From a virus: a stretch of 35,191 nt of DNA. Within the stretch, counting starts at the first letter, position 1. Each line of letters begins with the position of its first letter. The DNA lies in IMG/VR virus record IMGVR_UViG_3300005095_000111, positions 1 to 35,191 of that record, one strand, 5' to 3'. This document shows, in pieces, positions 11,771 to 24,083 of the stretch. The notes under the pieces were generated by a model, which was given only the letters and a program-made list of their open reading frames with translations, ran no database searches and was not told the DNA's origin. A program made the position numbers and the translations under genes.

Positions 11771-12277
11771 TTAAGCGCTTACTTGATGATCTTCATCTGA
11801 AAAGCCAAATGAAGCTCGAATCTGCTTTTGATCTGCTGTAAGTGCTGCGACATGTGATTTAGGGGCAGGGTCATCACCTGATGACTGTTGAGTACCTAAT
11901 GCACTGATTGGTGTAGCATTTTCGATAAAGTTTGTCAGTGCTGCCATATCACTATTACCTAAGCTGGTTGCCCATGCTTGTTGCGCTGGCAAAAGATGGC
12001 CAGATGCCAAAGCATTATCAACGGTCGTTGTTACAGATGATGACGCCTGCTTATTTGTTAGCGCTACAACTTGTGCTTGCAACTCGGCTACCATTGAAAC
12101 TGGTGCATATTCAGAAGGGTCAGGAGTAGATACTGCTTCAACTTTAGCTGTTAAAGCAACAATGGACGCTTGCGCTTCTGTATTCGCAGATTGAAGAGCC
12201 GTTAAAGCCGCAAGCGCTTCTTCTTCGGTTGTGTTTTCGGGCATGTTTAGCGCAATGAGCAGTGTCTTCAAGTCCAT
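11771..12277 (-). CDS. Internal in-frame scaffold (Z-like) product of gene I
   Basis: Inside gene I, ATG 12277 (residue 193, start MDLKTLLIALNMPENTTEEE) is preceded by TGAGGACAATCC, a good ribosome-binding site at normal distance. In Mu, gene Z is made the same way, from an internal start in I, and gives the scaffold without the protease. The product here would be 168 residues, mostly helical. The main support is the internal site and the precedent in Mu; there is no direct proof of expression. Confidence 0.6.
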   Translation of the reverse strand: MDLKTLLIALNMPENTTEEEALAALTALQSANTEAQASIVALTAKVEAVSTPDPSEYAPVSMVAELQAQVVALTNKQASSSVTTTVDNALASGHLLPAQQAWATSLGNSDMAALTNFIENATPISALGTQQSSGDDPAPKSHVAALTADQKQIRASFGFSDEDHQVSA

Positions 12278-12853
12278 TGGATTGTCCTCAGGTTGATTAG
12301 ATTGATTGGTAAGCTGCTGAAAGTTTTCGAGCGTTAATTTGGCAAGGTTCTCCATGCCATCTATCGCTGGATGGTTTGTGATTGCAGCCATAATAATGTC
12401 AAGTACGTGCCCAGTTTTAGGGTCGTAAATCATGACGGGAGAGATGTAGCGGTATTCGCCATCCAAAATCATGCGTTCGGCAGTAGGTGTCCAGGTGACA
12501 TTAGTCGCCCACAGACCTGATTCACGCCATTGCAATTTTGAAAACCAACCCGCAGCAGGGGCCGGTTGGCCGTTTTGTTCTTTTAAGAGAGTTTGGTGTT
12601 CGTAATCGATGACTCGATCATTTGAGTAACTCGTGTATTCAATGAGCTTTTTAGCAATAGACTCATCGATAAACCAGCCGTCCGTTAGGTCAACAGGGCG
12701 GCCATCTTTGGCTTTAAAGAAACCAACAGGGGTCAGTTGGATTTCGTTTGGGGCTTTTTGGTTTTCAACAATTAAGTTGATAGATAGCGCAGCGACCGCA
12801 ACAGGTTGCGATGGGCTAGATGTTTTGGAATATTGGGGTGTTTTTGTTTTCAT
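11771..12853 (-). CDS. I: Head maturation protease and scaffold, Mu gpI family
   Basis: A 360-residue protein. The N-terminal half (AALSINLIVENQ, IQLTPVGFFKAKDGRPV, VIDYEHQTLL, PAPAAGWFSKLQWRESGLW, EYRYISPVM) is the Mu I protease domain. The C-terminal half is a helical scaffold (NPMDLKTLLIALNMPENTTE, then coiled, alanine- and glutamine-rich). The ATG at 12853 coincides with the predicted start of transcription from the late promoter, suggesting a leaderless message. I is known to cleave scaffold and itself during head assembly. Confidence 0.9.
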   Translation of the reverse strand: MKTKTPQYSKTSSPSQPVAVAALSINLIVENQKAPNEIQLTPVGFFKAKDGRPVDLTDGWFIDESIAKKLIEYTSYSNDRVIDYEHQTLLKEQNGQPAPAAGWFSKLQWRESGLWATNVTWTPTAERMILDGEYRYISPVMIYDPKTGHVLDIIMAAITNHPAIDGMENLAKLTLENFQQLTNQSNQPEDNPMDLKTLLIALNMPENTTEEEALAALTALQSANTEAQASIVALTAKVEAVSTPDPSEYAPVSMVAELQAQVVALTNKQASSSVTTTVDNALASGHLLPAQQAWATSLGNSDMAALTNFIENATPISALGTQQSSGDDPAPKSHVAALTADQKQIRASFGFSDEDHQVSA

Positions 12854-12859
12854 GCCTCA

Positions 12860-12906
12860 AGTGTAGAGGCATGGTGATTAGAGGTGATTTCAAGCGTTTG
12901 AGAAGG
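12860..12906 (-). promoter_or_regulatory. Late promoter, head module (PI-like)
   Basis: CCTTCTCAAACGCTTGAAA (12888-12906, minus strand), 22 bp, then TACACT (12860-12865). The -10 sits in the loop of a perfect 8-bp inverted repeat (CATGCCTC / GAGGCATG, 12851-12873). The predicted +1 is 12853, the A of the gene I start codon. It begins two bases after the stop of the GHKL-nuclease gene. Position matches Mu PI, between G and I. Confidence 0.82.
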
Positions 12907-12908
12907 TT

Positions 12909-14933
12909 TTAGCTTGCTTCTTCAAGATCATCTATCTGCACTGATTCTGTGTACTGAGCATATTTTTCTTTTAAAAAACGCAGACTATCTTCTTGTGAGG
13001 CATTTATATCTAGATGTTTTTTAAGAAAATCAAGGCGATGACTGGCTTGAGCAAAAAGCATTGACCATGTTACAGCTTTTATTTTATATGACATGTTTCC
13101 AACTGTATTTTGTTCAATTAAGCCTGAGCTATCATTTTTCAACTTTGATCTAACAAAGTTGTCTGAAGCGTAATCATCACCAATAATCCAAAATTCCCAA
13201 GTACTTTTTACAGTTTTAAACCTAGGATCGTTAACTATCGCGATTTGATAATCCTCGACTTGTCTGTATTGTTTTTGTCCGATATGTTCTGTAGGCCTTT
13301 TTAGCTCTATCACAAGATAGCTGATTTCATCAGGTTTAGAATTCCCTAAAGATCTTGTTAACATTAAATCAACAATACCGTTAGTGCCATCAATTCTTTT
13401 AACTGGTTTATCAATAACAACATCAGTTATATTTCTACTTTTAAGGTGTCCTTCCAACACTTTTGTGAGTGATTGATCATTAACCGTAAGAGTAAACTGT
13501 TCGCCGAAAATCCAAGTATTGTCGGCCAAAATTTTGTGAAGTTGTGATCTCTCTTTGATGTGTTTGGCAATATCTTTATCGTAAATTAACTCTTTAAGGG
13601 CAGTAATAAATTTAATTCGATCTGAAACTTCCTTAGAGGTCTTAATCATATTAGACAGAGATGATTCTTCTAGCAGTTGTGCTAGTTCTTTTTGTTGGTT
13701 TTCAGGTAAATCTAGAACTTCCTTGAAAATTCGTTTTAGTGTTGTGTCACCGCTTTCAATTGCTTGTCTAAGCATGTGCAATTGAAATTTTTTAGTTTTA
13801 GGGGCCTCGTCATTAAAACCTGGCAAACTTTCTGTAACGGTAATGGCAAGAATATCAAATAACTCTTGCTCTGCTTTTTCGACAGGGGCTAGGCCTTCAT
13901 GAGTTTTTAATATCTCATCTGCGGAATAGGGATATATACCTGCACTGCGCCAATCTTCAAAAATAGTCTTGTGGTCTTCCAGTTTTCTCTGCTTAAAATG
14001 TTCTTTAAGAGTCTTGATTGCCTCTTCAATATTTCTATTCACGTCATTACTTAGCCCACTTAGGCTGAGTAAGTTTTGATGGTTTAAAACTCTAAATAGA
14101 TCAGATGAAAGGTAGGCTGTATAGGAATAATCACCGATACTTCTAATCTGCTTATCATATTCTTGAAGTGGTACTTCGTCTTTGGAGCAAAGCCATACTT
14201 CTTTATGGCTACCAATTTCGGCAGCCCATTCAACTATTTTTAGTGACAAGGGATATTTTGAACCTTCATATTCGATATCATCTAACTCGATATCTATTTC
14301 GTCTGCTATATATAGTGACGGGTCTATACGAGTGCCATTAATGGTTAAGTTGATATCAGAATGGTTCTTTAGATAGAGAGAGAAAACAGGAGCAATTTTT
14401 TGAATCAATTTTGTAGGGTCTTCTAGGAATTCAAACTGTTTGAATAACTCATCCACCACAACAGTGACGCCAGTTGGTGAGCTTTTTTTATTATGTTCAT
14501 CAAACTCAAAGTCAGTTGGGTTGTCGGCTTTTCCAGAGATTTTAAATGAGAATGTATCATCAGATTTATCTTTGTAAGTTGACGTCCAATTCATTACTCG
14601 CCCTAAAGCATAACCTTTAAACCTTCCATGTCCTTCACTGCCATGTAACTTTCTACCTAAGAGAGTGGTGTGTGTGTTTTTTTTCCAAGATGCACCTAGG
14701 TTTCCAAAAAGAAGTTCTTTTTTGCCCCAATTGATCCCTGTTCCATTATCTGTAATGACAATTTTTTTATCGCCAGGTAAAAGACCTGATGATGGAAATG
14801 TAACAGTAACAATTTTTGAATCAGCATCAAGAGCATTCCAAATCATCTCACAGATGGCTTTATCAGGCTGTGCACGCTTGATTTTATTCATATAGTCATT
14901 AGTGATTTGTACTTTTACGATATTTGAAGTCAT
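12909..14933 (-). CDS. GHKL ATPase fused to DUF4263/Shedu-like nuclease, candidate defence protein
   Basis: A 674-residue protein. Residues about 10-260 are a GHKL (Hsp90/MutL-type) ATPase: E29, N33 and D36 in EMIWNALDAD, D62 in TDNGTGI, and the glycine-rich lid HGSEGHGRFKG (97-107). After a helical linker, the C-terminal part (about 465-620) has NTWIFGEQ, then VDLML (D522), IELK (E543, K545) and QVEDY (Q558, Y562), the layout of a PD-(D/E)xK nuclease of the DUF4263 family that includes Shedu SduA. The ATPase would be the sensor or switch, the nuclease the effector (inference). It is cargo between G and I, just upstream of the late promoter and in the same direction. Not needed for virion assembly in relatives. 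No strong promoter of its own is obvious. Confidence 0.82.
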   Translation of the reverse strand: MTSNIVKVQITNDYMNKIKRAQPDKAICEMIWNALDADSKIVTVTFPSSGLLPGDKKIVITDNGTGINWGKKELLFGNLGASWKKNTHTTLLGRKLHGSEGHGRFKGYALGRVMNWTSTYKDKSDDTFSFKISGKADNPTDFEFDEHNKKSSPTGVTVVVDELFKQFEFLEDPTKLIQKIAPVFSLYLKNHSDINLTINGTRIDPSLYIADEIDIELDDIEYEGSKYPLSLKIVEWAAEIGSHKEVWLCSKDEVPLQEYDKQIRSIGDYSYTAYLSSDLFRVLNHQNLLSLSGLSNDVNRNIEEAIKTLKEHFKQRKLEDHKTIFEDWRSAGIYPYSADEILKTHEGLAPVEKAEQELFDILAITVTESLPGFNDEAPKTKKFQLHMLRQAIESGDTTLKRIFKEVLDLPENQQKELAQLLEESSLSNMIKTSKEVSDRIKFITALKELIYDKDIAKHIKERSQLHKILADNTWIFGEQFTLTVNDQSLTKVLEGHLKSRNITDVVIDKPVKRIDGTNGIVDLMLTRSLGNSKPDEISYLVIELKRPTEHIGQKQYRQVEDYQIAIVNDPRFKTVKSTWEFWIIGDDYASDNFVRSKLKNDSSGLIEQNTVGNMSYKIKAVTWSMLFAQASHRLDFLKKHLDINASQEDSLRFLKEKYAQYTESVQIDDLEEAS

Positions 14934-15078
14934 TTAAAAATCTGCCTTAGCGTTTGATATTGGTAATACTACTGCATTATCAGCCCAACCTCTACTCAAT
15001 AGATGCGCTAAACACCGTTTAAATTTTCCAGTAAACGTTTAAGTCTTTTTAATCTATGGCAATGTATAGGTTCTGCAC

Positions 15079-15100
15079 TAAAGCCGCTGTATGGGCTTTA
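15079..15100. terminator. Hairpin between gene G and the GHKL-nuclease gene
   Basis: Perfect 7-bp arms TAAAGCC and GGCTTTA with an 8-base loop lie 15 bases past the stop of gene G. On the plus strand it is followed by TTTTC, on the minus strand by a mixed sequence, so as a terminator for the phage transcript it is weak. It may mark the join between phage backbone and inserted cargo. The rest of 14934-15114 shows no gene and no convincing promoter. Confidence 0.4.
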
Positions 15101-15114
15101 TTTTCGTAGTAGGT

Positions 15115-15570
15115 TTAATCAAATGCAAGGGACAAATGATCTGCAACTATGTCGAGTATATCTGTTTCATCTTTTGGCGTCAGACCAAGAAAAGGTCGAG
15201 ATGGGATGCCGCTTGGTTTGTTGAAACTTCCTGCGTCTGAACCAAACTGATGGATGGCTGCATATTTACGATCGGAACCAAACTCCAAACCTTTCCCTCC
15301 ATTGACGAGTTGGTAGGTTAATTCTCGAAATAAATCACCTGATTCAATAAGCACATTATCTTTGTTTCGTTTTTTACGTTTAACGGTTAGATATTTTAGT
15401 GGGGTGAACTTTTGACCATGTATATCATTGCCTGCTGTTAACCTATCGCGAGTATTATTGAGCAGAATCTCTCCCATATCTAAAAACACAGGCTCTAAAC
15501 TTGTAGTAAGCTGGTTTAATTCACTAAAGGCTTGTGTAACTTGTGTTAAATCTACCTTTACGCCGGCCAT
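15115..15570 (-). CDS. G: Virion morphogenesis protein, Mu gpG family
   Basis: A 151-residue protein of the phage virion morphogenesis family (the family of Mu gpG and P2 gpS). Markers are the N-terminal helix ending LLNNTRDRLTAGNDIHGQKF, then LIESGDLFRELTYQL, the strand-turn GLEFGSDRKYAAIHQFG and the C-terminal IPSRPFLGLTPKDE. It acts in head or tail completion. The start ATG 15570 has AAGGAAAAC upstream. It lies between F and the cargo gene; in Mu, G is followed directly by I. Confidence 0.9.
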   Translation of the reverse strand: MAGVKVDLTQVTQAFSELNQLTTSLEPVFLDMGEILLNNTRDRLTAGNDIHGQKFTPLKYLTVKRKKRNKDNVLIESGDLFRELTYQLVNGGKGLEFGSDRKYAAIHQFGSDAGSFNKPSGIPSRPFLGLTPKDETDILDIVADHLSLAFD

Positions 15571-22126: not shown

Positions 22127-22641
22127 TAGAGTATCTCCAGGTAAAAGTTTTGTCGGTTTGTGATAGCGTGAATTTTGTGTAGTGCACCGCGTGATGCGAG
22201 GCCTGCGAGTTGGCCGTATAACATGCCCAAACGCGTAGCAGGCAGTAAACAGCCCCAGCTATGCGTTTTAAAGCCTTTAAATTTGTCACCTGCCACATTT
22301 CCTGCATGAGTTAAAACGCCGCTACGACTGGGTACTTTTGTGACGTGATAAACGTCTCTGTATTTACCTGACGCTGAGCGTTTTAGGTATTTAACAAGGT
22401 ACATCCCTGGTGGAATTCGGCTTATATTACGGGCGTTGTTACGATCGGGTAGCTCCATCATGTAGCAGACTCGTCGCTCATTAAACATAAGTCGACCTGT
22501 CGTACCGTGATCGGTTGATGGCGCACGATAGAGTTGGAGAGTTTTAAGTGAGCAATGGTTGCATAATGCGCTCTTAACCACCGTTTTAATGGCAGTTTTG
22601 AGTTTATTATGGGGTGACTTTAGGGGGTTAATTACTTTCAT
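22126..22641 (-). CDS. DUF5675 family protein, candidate endolysin
   Basis: A 171-residue protein. Markers are LYRAPSTDHGTTGRLMFNER, VCYMMELPDRNNARNISRIP, PGMYLVKYLKR, then VLTHAGNVAGDKFKGFKTHS with WGCLLP. These match DUF5675, with the histidine and cysteine of the H..GN....GC pattern (similar to L,D-transpeptidase-like active sites). It is the first gene of the lysis unit, and no lysozyme, amidase or lytic transglycosylase is found elsewhere, so it may cleave peptidoglycan (inference). Its ATG falls on the predicted transcription start of the late promoter, suggesting a leaderless message. Confidence 0.75.
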   Translation of the reverse strand: MKVINPLKSPHNKLKTAIKTVVKSALCNHCSLKTLQLYRAPSTDHGTTGRLMFNERRVCYMMELPDRNNARNISRIPPGMYLVKYLKRSASGKYRDVYHVTKVPSRSGVLTHAGNVAGDKFKGFKTHSWGCLLPATRLGMLYGQLAGLASRGALHKIHAITNRQNFYLEIL

Positions 22642-22647
22642 ACCTCT

Positions 22648-22694
22648 AGAATAGAGGGTTTTACGATAGGGTGAGTTTCAAGTGTTTGAGAAGG
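22648..22694 (-). promoter_or_regulatory. Late promoter, lysis and packaging genes (Plys-like)
   Basis: CCTTCTCAAACACTTGAAA (22676-22694, minus strand), exactly 22 bp, then TATTCT (22648-22653), which lies inside the inverted repeat CCTCTA-TTC-TAGAGG. The predicted +1 is 22641, the A of the next ATG. It shares its 19-bp motif with the two other late promoters, with only the centre base varying. Confidence 0.82.
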
Positions 22695-22725
22695 ATCTAA
22701 AAGAGGGGTGCATTAAGCTGGTATG

Positions 22726-22923
22726 CTAATTATTTTGCTGTATTGCCTGAAGTTCAATAGAGTCTAATTCACTAAATAGCTGACCGATTGCCTTTATATT
22801 TATGCCTGTTTCACAAGCCTCTTCTGTATTGTAAAAAGTCATTAAATCATTAATTACAGAGCGATATGAGCGTATGTTGTCGATGACATCGATTGGGCGG
22901 TCTTGAAGTTTTATGTTTGTCAT
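22726..22923 (-). CDS. Small hypothetical protein upstream of the lysis promoter
   Basis: A 65-residue protein starting at ATG 22923 with GGAG about nine bases upstream. It is predicted mainly helical (IDVIDNIRSYRSVINDLMTF; GQLFSELDSIELQAIQQ) with no motif that I recognise. In Mu the late activator C lies at this point, but this protein has no HTH of the Mor/C type and is too short. It is separated from the early operon by 270 bases and has its own possible promoter, so it may be a middle gene. Hypothetical. Confidence 0.5.
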   Translation of the reverse strand: MTNIKLQDRPIDVIDNIRSYRSVINDLMTFYNTEEACETGINIKAIGQLFSELDSIELQAIQQNN

Positions 22924-22966
22924 TGTTTTGTTTCTCCACTAGAAATAGTCTTAAAAAAATAAGGTT

Positions 22967-22982
22967 TGATATCAAGATATCA
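22967..22982 (-). promoter_or_regulatory. Perfect palindrome, candidate middle promoter operator
   Basis: TGATATCAAGATATCA has perfect 7-bp arms around AA. On the minus strand its TTGATA is followed after 22 bp by TATTTC, the same spacing as between TTGAAA and the -10 in the late promoters, and then by the ribosome-binding site of the 65-residue gene. It could be a Mor-type middle promoter, but the motif itself differs from the late one. The rest of 22924-23125 shows no gene. Confidence 0.4.
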
Positions 22983-23125
22983 TTTTTATAAATTCTGCCA
23001 AACTTTTAGAGTGTTTTAAGCACGTTTACCTTTAAAAAATAGTGTTTAAGTTATAGAGGGCTTTTAAAATTGAGGAGAAATTGCTAGAAAGTTGGTTTAT
23101 GTCAAAAAATTAAAGTTTATTTTTT

Positions 23126-23188
23126 ACAGCTCCTACAACAGTTACATCCCTTATGTTTAAAGGGAGTGGTATGGGTTGTAGGAGTTGT
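23126..23188 (-). terminator. Large hairpin after the RepA-like gene
   Basis: Fourteen-base arms (23126-23139 and 23175-23188, one mismatch that can pair as G-U) enclose a second 6-bp stem TCCCTT / AAGGGA (23147-23165). It begins five bases after the stop of the RepA-like gene. No T-run follows directly on the minus strand, so it may act as an mRNA end stabiliser or as a factor-dependent stop for the early operon rather than a simple terminator. Confidence 0.5.
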
Positions 23189-23192
23189 AGAG

Positions 23193-24083
23193 TTACTGAA
23201 TCAGGCTATAGGTGTAAATACCTTTAACCTTACTGCAAGCCCAGTAAATGTCTTGGTATTGATCTAATCTGTCACGGGCTGTTTTGTCTGTTTTTTCATA
23301 GCCACAGGTGTTAAGTAAGTCAGTTTTATTAAGATTTAACCCCTTTCCTAGGGCGGCTTTCACTTCATTGATAAAGCTCTTTTCTTCGGTATTTAGCCTG
23401 GCATCTTGAAGGTCTATTGTCAGTAGGCTTAGATCATCTATTTTAACTTTAAAAGCGATATCGATAATATTTGCGCGCTCTTTCTTAACCGTTAAAATGA
23501 AGTGAATCTCACCCGTTGGTGACTCCGTTTTAGTCAGTAGATACATGTTGTCTATTGAATTACGGATGTTGTTTGATCCCTGGTAGTTGCGGCCGTCTTT
23601 GTTTGAGTGATGTAAAACGATAATTGTTGCGCCTGCTTCACGAATGTTTTTAAGCTTTTCACCTAAGCGCATACTAGCACCGTCGTTGTTGACATCACCA
23701 AAATCACGAAGACTATCAATGACAAATAGCGTGTTGTTGTAGTTGTTTCCTGATGCGTTGTCTTCAATTGCTTGGAGCATCGCAAGAGGCTGTAATTCTG
23801 TTTTTGAACGATGGGAGTAGTGCAGGTTAGGGCAGACTTGAATAAGTTTAGTTTCAATACCACGCTCTTTAAGAACGTTCATCGGGTTGTCGTAGTCTAA
23901 ATAGATTGCATTCATGCCATTGATTTCTGCAAATTTAGCGATGGCCATAGCAAGCCAGCTTTTACCCATGCCTCCATCGGCATAGATCATGGTAATCAGG
24001 TGTTTGGGGATGAAACCGTCAATTAAGAACTCAGTTTTTTGATTAAAATCTTCTAGCTTTAATGGGTTTAAAAAAGGGTACAT
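23193..24083 (-). CDS. RepA/RecA-like ATPase (AAA_25 type)
   Basis: A 296-residue protein. Walker A is ADGGMGKSW (about 35-43), Walker B is TLFVIDSLRDFG (about 117-128, with D after VI), followed by TIIVLHHSNKDG, the sensor histidines of RepA-like hexameric helicases and related AAA_25 ATPases. The C-terminal 90 residues look like a small winged-helix domain. Such ATPases serve replication in plasmids and other phages; Mu itself replicates by transposition with host helicases and does not encode one. Here it is the last early gene, six bases after the Mor-like gene, with AGGA before the ATG. Confidence 0.8.
   Translation of the reverse strand: MYPFLNPLKLEDFNQKTEFLIDGFIPKHLITMIYADGGMGKSWLAMAIAKFAEINGMNAIYLDYDNPMNVLKERGIETKLIQVCPNLHYSHRSKTELQPLAMLQAIEDNASGNNYNNTLFVIDSLRDFGDVNNDGASMRLGEKLKNIREAGATIIVLHHSNKDGRNYQGSNNIRNSIDNMYLLTKTESPTGEIHFILTVKKERANIIDIAFKVKIDDLSLLTIDLQDARLNTEEKSFINEVKAALGKGLNLNKTDLLNTCGYEKTDKTARDRLDQYQDIYWACSKVKGIYTYSLIQ

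Follow-up and report, generated by a model that had tools for sequence, protein, structure and literature searches.

What does a gene for a long ATPase-nuclease do between two structural genes of a transposable phage? The gene lies in a 35,191-nucleotide stretch of viral DNA (IMG/VR virus record IMGVR_UViG_3300005095_000111), analysed here at its full length and referred to as the window. The window carries the gene set of a Mu-like transposable phage, including the genes for the transposase, terminase, portal, gpF, gpG, protease I, major head and tape measure proteins, as well as GemA, the Mor activator and gp27. The gene under study (12909..14933, minus strand) starts with ATG, encodes a protein of 674 amino acids and belongs to phrog_6203. 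It is the single open reading frame between homologues of Mu G upstream (15115..15570; tail completion or Neck1 protein, phrog_26, E=5.8e-31) and Mu I downstream (11771..12853; head maturation protease, phrog_328, E=1e-101), and all three genes are on the minus strand. These matches confirm the position between G and I given in a preliminary description of the sequence, which had also held that G and I are adjacent in Mu; they are indeed 196 bp apart there. The GC content of the gene is 35.3%, compared to 41.4% in the rest of the window. An identical copy is present on a contig of a gammaproteobacterial metagenome-assembled genome, where it is flanked by matching phage genes.

The match to phrog_6203 covers nearly the full length of the protein (residues 22–653 on profile positions 25–641 of 644, E=4e-70), and Pfam HATPase_c_3 is matched with E=2e-12; at such E-values, chance is excluded as the source of these profile matches. 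The N-terminal module (residues 9–321; 13971..14909, minus strand) was assigned as a GHKL ATPase with an S5-like transducer part by the HATPase_c_3 match, by conservation and by alignment to MORC3. It includes the GHKL residues E29, N33, D36, D62, G64 and G66, and the lid residues H97-G98, G101 and G103-R104. Together with the nuclease residues D522, E543, K545, Q558 and Y562, they are invariant in a 13-row alignment. In a larger alignment of the window protein and 81 relatives, each 30–40% identical to it, the same residues occur in 82 of 82 rows, except for E29 (81 rows, one gap) and Q558 (81 rows, one E). The 81 relatives were drawn from 120 collected loci; to limit the size of the alignment, fragments and split genes, close duplicates, the identical copy (L056) and also some full-length rows were omitted. 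The claim of an intact GHKL ATP site is thus upheld.

A structural model was built by AlphaFold2 with the 82-row alignment (mean pLDDT 88.2, pTM 0.68), which was used in place of a single-sequence run (pLDDT 33). Residues 9–320 of the model align with the ATPase module of MORC3 (5ix2_B) in VIA-align with Z 19.9 and rmsd 3.7 over 281 aligned residues. The MORC3 module includes the S5/transducer part, and the alignment supports such a part after the GHKL domain in the predicted structure. The ATPase modules of MORC2 and TRAP1 match as well, the latter with Z 18.3. Foldseek placed TRAP1, an Hsp90, first; a MutL match was also obtained for this half by structure search, and in sequence profile comparison MutL, topoisomerase VI B and MORC rank above Hsp90. 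The earlier label of an Hsp90-like ATPase is therefore fair as a name for the fold, although MORC3 is above TRAP1 by VIA-align and the profile order puts Hsp90 below the three other families. The proposed check of this half by structure prediction thus yielded the MORC and TRAP1 ATPase fold.

In the search with the whole model, matches fill the ATPase half (residues 8–425), and the C-terminal half was analysed by the secondary structure of the model, conservation and profile comparison. A helical middle segment (residues 322–461; 13551..13970, minus strand) is seen in the model and is followed by the nuclease domain (residues 462–641; 13011..13550, minus strand). The PD-(D/E)xK core has a strand-strand-helix-strand order. 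The model shows this order in strands 520–528 (with D522) and 537–544 (with E543), helix 553–568 (with Q558 and Y562) and strand 577–585, and with the conserved D and ExK these elements fit a PD-(D/E)xK core in the predicted structure of the C-terminal half. Residues E461, D522, E543 and K545 are present in 82 of 82 rows, which fits a C-terminal restriction-fold domain with an E-D-ExK motif, in which we ourselves assigned E461 to the leading E.

The relation of this half to Shedu nucleases was assessed by hhalign. Residues 370–674 of the 82-row family were compared with ten SduA proteins (318–471 aa), collected with PF14082 from genomes in the same class as G001. The resulting probabilities were 92.1% for global and 78.9% for local alignment, and the D, ExK, Q and Y positions are lined up. 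Among the controls, ten column shuffles and a reversed alignment stayed at or below 0.2%, gpI at or below 0.1%, and the GHKL half of the family itself at or below 1.1%. Two HSDR_N sets, used as a PD-(D/E)xK control, gave 0.1% in global mode and 3.8% and 5.7% in local mode; they are small sets of 5 and 11 proteins, trimmed by position. The profile comparison favours SduA over HSDR_N as the nearer relative, and a remoter link to HSDR_N may exist.

Pfam SduA_C (PF14082) has no match to the window protein at E≤10. It is also missing from the Pfam families reported at E≤1 for 13 relatives, and was not found in four genomes that hold relatives. In the Pfam scan the C-terminal half of 12 of the 13 relatives is matched by HSDR_N_2 (best 3.1e-6), and one relative scores 26.3 bits, which is above the Pfam cut-off. 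The PADLOC SduA model matches the window protein weakly (18.7 bits, 2.3e-4) and two of the 13 relatives. A distant GHKL-nuclease protein (L237) scores 24.5 bits with SduA_C, for which the cut-off is 27, and 29.2 bits with its neighbours in frame. A match to PF14082 is a detection threshold and not a definition of the fold. The DUF4263-type core of the preliminary description is accordingly supported by its residues and by the hhalign comparison with SduA, but not by a Pfam SduA_C match, and membership of the Shedu group is suggested by the profile comparison together with a published extension of the group (type I-D).

Two descriptions in the literature cover this architecture. The paraMORC3 proteins were defined by Iyer, Abhiman and Aravind in 2008 as a GHKL and an S5 domain with a C-terminal restriction-fold domain bearing E-D-ExK, of sporadic distribution and on mobile elements; the review exchange printed with that paper mentions standalone paraMORC3 genes (PMC2292703). 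The window protein shares the domains, the motif and the sporadic, mobile spread. It differs in context: in the 2008 paper, MORC-like genes are linked chiefly to restriction-modification operons, whereas the window gene is alone in a phage. In 2025, VcSduA from the VSP-II island of Vibrio cholerae WASA was reported as a Shedu protein with an N-terminal GHKL ATPase (PMC12137116). It acts against T1-like phages, and E27A and K557A abolish its activity; growth curves at all multiplicities were reported to be consistent with direct restriction and host survival. Its authors classed it as type I-D and linked it to paraMORC3. As far as the published description allows comparison, the two proteins share a GHKL domain with intact motifs, a middle part and a C-terminal PD-(D/E)xK domain, encoded by a single gene of a mobile element, which is a genomic island for VcSduA and a Mu-like phage for the window gene.

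The published positions in VcSduA give a spacing of 530 (27 to 557) between the catalytic E and K, as against 516 in the window protein and 496–521 in the 82 rows, and VcSduA may for this reason belong to another, neighbouring subfamily. A spacing of 530 was not found in the 82 rows or in nine further aligned relatives. A search for VcSduA-like proteins covered 196 genomes of the genus of a Vibrio locus (L058) and five extra regions; a motif search did not find the GHKL motif in four of these regions, and the fifth is L251. Several further GHKL-nuclease subfamilies were seen in this genus and its class (L246, L247, L248, L249, L237 and L251). Where such a protein can be aligned with that of the window, the identity is about 23–26%; L237 matches PADLOC REase_II with 3.1e-92.

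Canonical SduA proteins share the related C-terminal nuclease half (92% in global hhalign); the ten compared are shorter, and a Pfam scan of one of them (L224) shows no GHKL domain. The window protein has its GHKL half as the N-terminal regulatory domain fused to the nuclease, whereas EcSduA is described in a review as a tetramer that senses DNA ends via its own N-terminal clamp (PMC12904381). Hypothetical ORFs of the Pasteurella phages Pmp3 and Pmp14 belong to the same family (33–34% identity over 97% of the length), but are located among tail genes and not between G and I. The view that the locus is the best candidate for an undescribed defence system is thus not sustained, as both paraMORC3 and VcSduA had been described in these publications. 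The fusion of a GHKL ATPase to a Shedu-like nuclease as cargo of a Mu-like phage is borne out by the fold, the hhalign comparison and the borders of the insertion. The window gene adds a member to a type of defence gene that is already known, here carried by a virus, and does not represent a new system. A text search with incomplete journal coverage found no paper on the family in a Mu-like phage.

To characterize the insertion site, we surveyed 80 Mu-like viral loci found by gene I, for which a single-protein scan of the viral contigs returned no relatives and an alignment-based scan found them. Both G and I were found in 54 loci, a number that includes near-copies; no G was found in the other 26. 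The G–I gap has a median of 212 bp (40 loci with at most 320 bp, two with 321–450 bp and 12 with more than 450 bp), and is 2261 bp in the window. Among eight phage records opened, JBD26 and CF74a have an enlarged gap, and in the other six the gap is 90–258 bp. Ten ORFs from seven of the 12 enlarged gaps were compared with three family libraries. The inserts include AcrF3 in two loci (L161 and L188), a phage membrane moron in L187, and in L175 (4461-6940) a cassette of two genes, one of them a KAP P-loop NTPase that corresponds to the PADLOC candidate PDC-S20 (E=1.2e-77). ORFs from L151 and L172 have no match in the three libraries. The second gene of the L175 cassette encodes 367 amino acids and is similar over part of its length to phrog_9267, a family of unknown function (1.8e-12). 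In the record of Mu, a gyrase cut site is marked between G and I.

In JBD26, type I-E and I-F anti-CRISPR genes are located between G (Neck1) and protease I. Pseudomonas Mu-like phages have been reported to contain a low-GC region of genomic plasticity G, the home of anti-CRISPRs (2014, PMC4378225), and from the position of the JBD26 genes it follows that this region is the G–I gap. The window gene thus shares with the Pseudomonas locus its position, low GC and exchangeable cargo, but is one long nuclease gene in place of short counter-defence genes. The comparison of the G–I gap across Mu-like phages that had been suggested for finding other cargo therefore returned anti-CRISPRs, a candidate-defence KAP ATPase cassette and a membrane moron, in keeping with the cargo slot that had been postulated.

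The borders of the slot were aligned between the window and three related loci, L144 without a long insert and L145 and L146 with small inserts or remnants. The gene thus occupies a G–I gap that lacks it in the relatives and whose borders are conserved, as expected of a moron. The window cargo stops only a few bases away from the points at which short coding ends stop in L145 and L146, just before the I-side leader (12851..12908, minus strand). These two ends (L145:3456-3506 and L146:6848-6922) resemble each other (IIENH...EN...) and lie directly before the I leader; they are perhaps remnants of an older shared cargo gene. In the G-side leader (14934..15114, minus strand), all four loci contain a block after G with two TTAAACG repeats about 20 bp apart (around 15043-15016 in the window), which L144 and L145 keep and in which L146 has one base changed in the first repeat. 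The repeats are possibly a site for a late activator or a repressor.

An inverted repeat, CATGCCTC/GAGGCATG (12851-12858 and 12866-12873), lies over the start codon of I and forms a hairpin with perfect 8-bp stems (-14.1 kcal/mol). The hairpin on the far side of the gene is therefore real, but since it overlaps the I start codon and recurs in L145 and L146, and in an imperfect form in L144, it looks like a part of the I leader and not of the cargo. A role as the cargo terminator was set aside; the hairpin may instead govern how I is translated or transcribed. Terminator-like sites are more frequent than in shuffled sequences (9 versus a mean of 3.1), with eight of the nine on the strand opposite to the gene. 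Matches to a sigma-70-like promoter are fewer than in shuffles (6 versus a mean of 10.2), and none is on the minus strand within 14934-15114, where the search thus found no promoter specific to the window gene. It gave no support to the late promoter that the preliminary description had placed right beside the gene.

The family is widespread. A scan of viral contigs with the single cargo protein gave no relatives, and an alignment-based scan identified 40 viral loci. Relatives were found in two of 50,697 phage records, both of them Pasteurella phages, and in 46 of 72,556 plasmid records (36 over at least 80% of the query). In the genome collection 386 of 398 pattern matches are relatives, of which the best 80 were kept. 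Many relatives are chromosomal or plasmid genes. Among 12 plasmid neighbourhoods opened, five contain restriction, methylase or other defence genes (a type ISP enzyme; Drt2 with dcm and LlaMI; an N-6 methylase; a helicase with an Abi protein; a DNA methyltransferase), two contain only toxin-antitoxin genes, one a DEAD/DEAH helicase, two none of these, and two have no gene table; these are counts without a background rate. The annotations of Pmp3 and Pmp14 show neither a restriction gene nor a methylase gene beside the family gene. On two transposable-phage contigs with MuB-like genes (L035 and L038), the gene runs against most flanking ORFs, which suggests that it has its own promoter there. 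The member on a Streptomyces plasmid (L009) may belong to a Tn7-like element, with genes for a TnsA-like endonuclease and for a transposase of the Mu type close by.

On a 94-row tree, the viral label, carried by 26 rows that may include IMG/VR contigs other than true phages, needs 14 changes, at least 12 of which are forced by well-supported branches. The label is also clustered (mean of 22.9 changes in shuffles, with none of 500 as low). The gene has thus passed between viruses and cellular genomes on many occasions, where the changes may be gains or losses.

Taken together, we consider it probable, at about three chances in four, that the gene is a moron of the Mu-like phage that encodes a single-protein anti-phage nuclease of the GHKL-Shedu (paraMORC3) type. 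ATP binding would close the GHKL modules of a putative dimer, in the manner of MutL and MORC, so that they clamp invading phage DNA. Clamping would position the C-terminal PD-(D/E)xK domains, with D522, E543 and K545, to cut the DNA selected as target, hydrolysis dependent on E29 would reset the clamp, and the lysogen would survive infection by other phages. This reading is favoured because the active sites are conserved in 81 or 82 of 82 rows, the fold matches and hhalign connects the nuclease half to SduA; because VcSduA, of the same architecture, was reported to restrict phages and to need both sites (PMC12137116); and because defence-type genes occur in five of 12 plasmid neighbourhoods and the viral label changed repeatedly. 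We counted against it the promoter search, which makes expression in the lysogen putative; the SduA_C, HSDR_N_2 and PADLOC results; and the difference in spacing from VcSduA, the clustered viral label and the neighbourhoods without defence genes.

A role as a restriction subunit, in which the GHKL domain would loop DNA between recognition and cleavage sites and a methylase or helicase would be encoded elsewhere, was proposed for MORC and paraMORC proteins in 2008 (PMC2292703) and is in agreement with the several relatives near methylases, helicases or restriction enzymes. We regard it as unlikely for the window gene, which is alone between two structural genes, and the two Pasteurella phage members have no restriction or methylase gene among their annotated neighbours; in addition, the 2008 exchange mentions standalone paraMORC3 genes (PMC2292703), and VcSduA and its neighbour GrwAB were reported to be independent systems in E. 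coli (PMC12137116). A late gene of the lytic cycle, for example one that degrades host or competitor DNA and gives no defence to a lysogen, is no more probable. It would explain the common strand with the late genes, the place in the middle of the head module, the phage leader block that is conserved next to G and the lack of a separate promoter in our search, but 53 of 54 other loci have no gene of such size in the slot, the exception (L175) having different genes. Moreover, the GC content is low, many relatives are encoded on chromosomes or plasmids, and the orientation in L035 and L038 is against the flanking ORFs. A MutL-like protein for repair or DNA processing without a role in conflict is very improbable: the ATPase half is related to MutL, but the patchy spread, the mobile contexts and the Shedu-type nuclease half speak against it, as does the defence phenotype of the same architecture in VcSduA (PMC12137116).

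Under the preferred reading of an anti-phage nuclease, the locus shows that a defence nuclease of a type validated in recent work is carried by a transposable phage, in the very gap that holds anti-CRISPR genes in its Pseudomonas relatives, and makes the G–I slot a practical place to seek further defence and counter-defence genes. We speculate that the gap could be an exchange slot for both kinds of cargo shared beyond Pseudomonas, and that an end-sensing nuclease could suit a transposing carrier, a doubtful extension. If the nuclease recognised DNA ends like EcSduA, a phage that replicates by transposition within the chromosome would offer few of them, and the prophage could carry, and even express, the nuclease during its own growth. 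Surveys based on Pfam SduA_C or models of the PADLOC type probably undercount the family, because of the absent SduA_C match and weak PADLOC match of the window protein and the label "ATP-binding protein", which stands bare in 30 of 40 plasmid matches listed (of 46 records). Elsewhere in the window, just downstream of the Mor gene, an ORF for an AAA_25 (RecA/KaiC-like) ATPase (23193-24083) overlaps a drop in GC content at 22501-23500.
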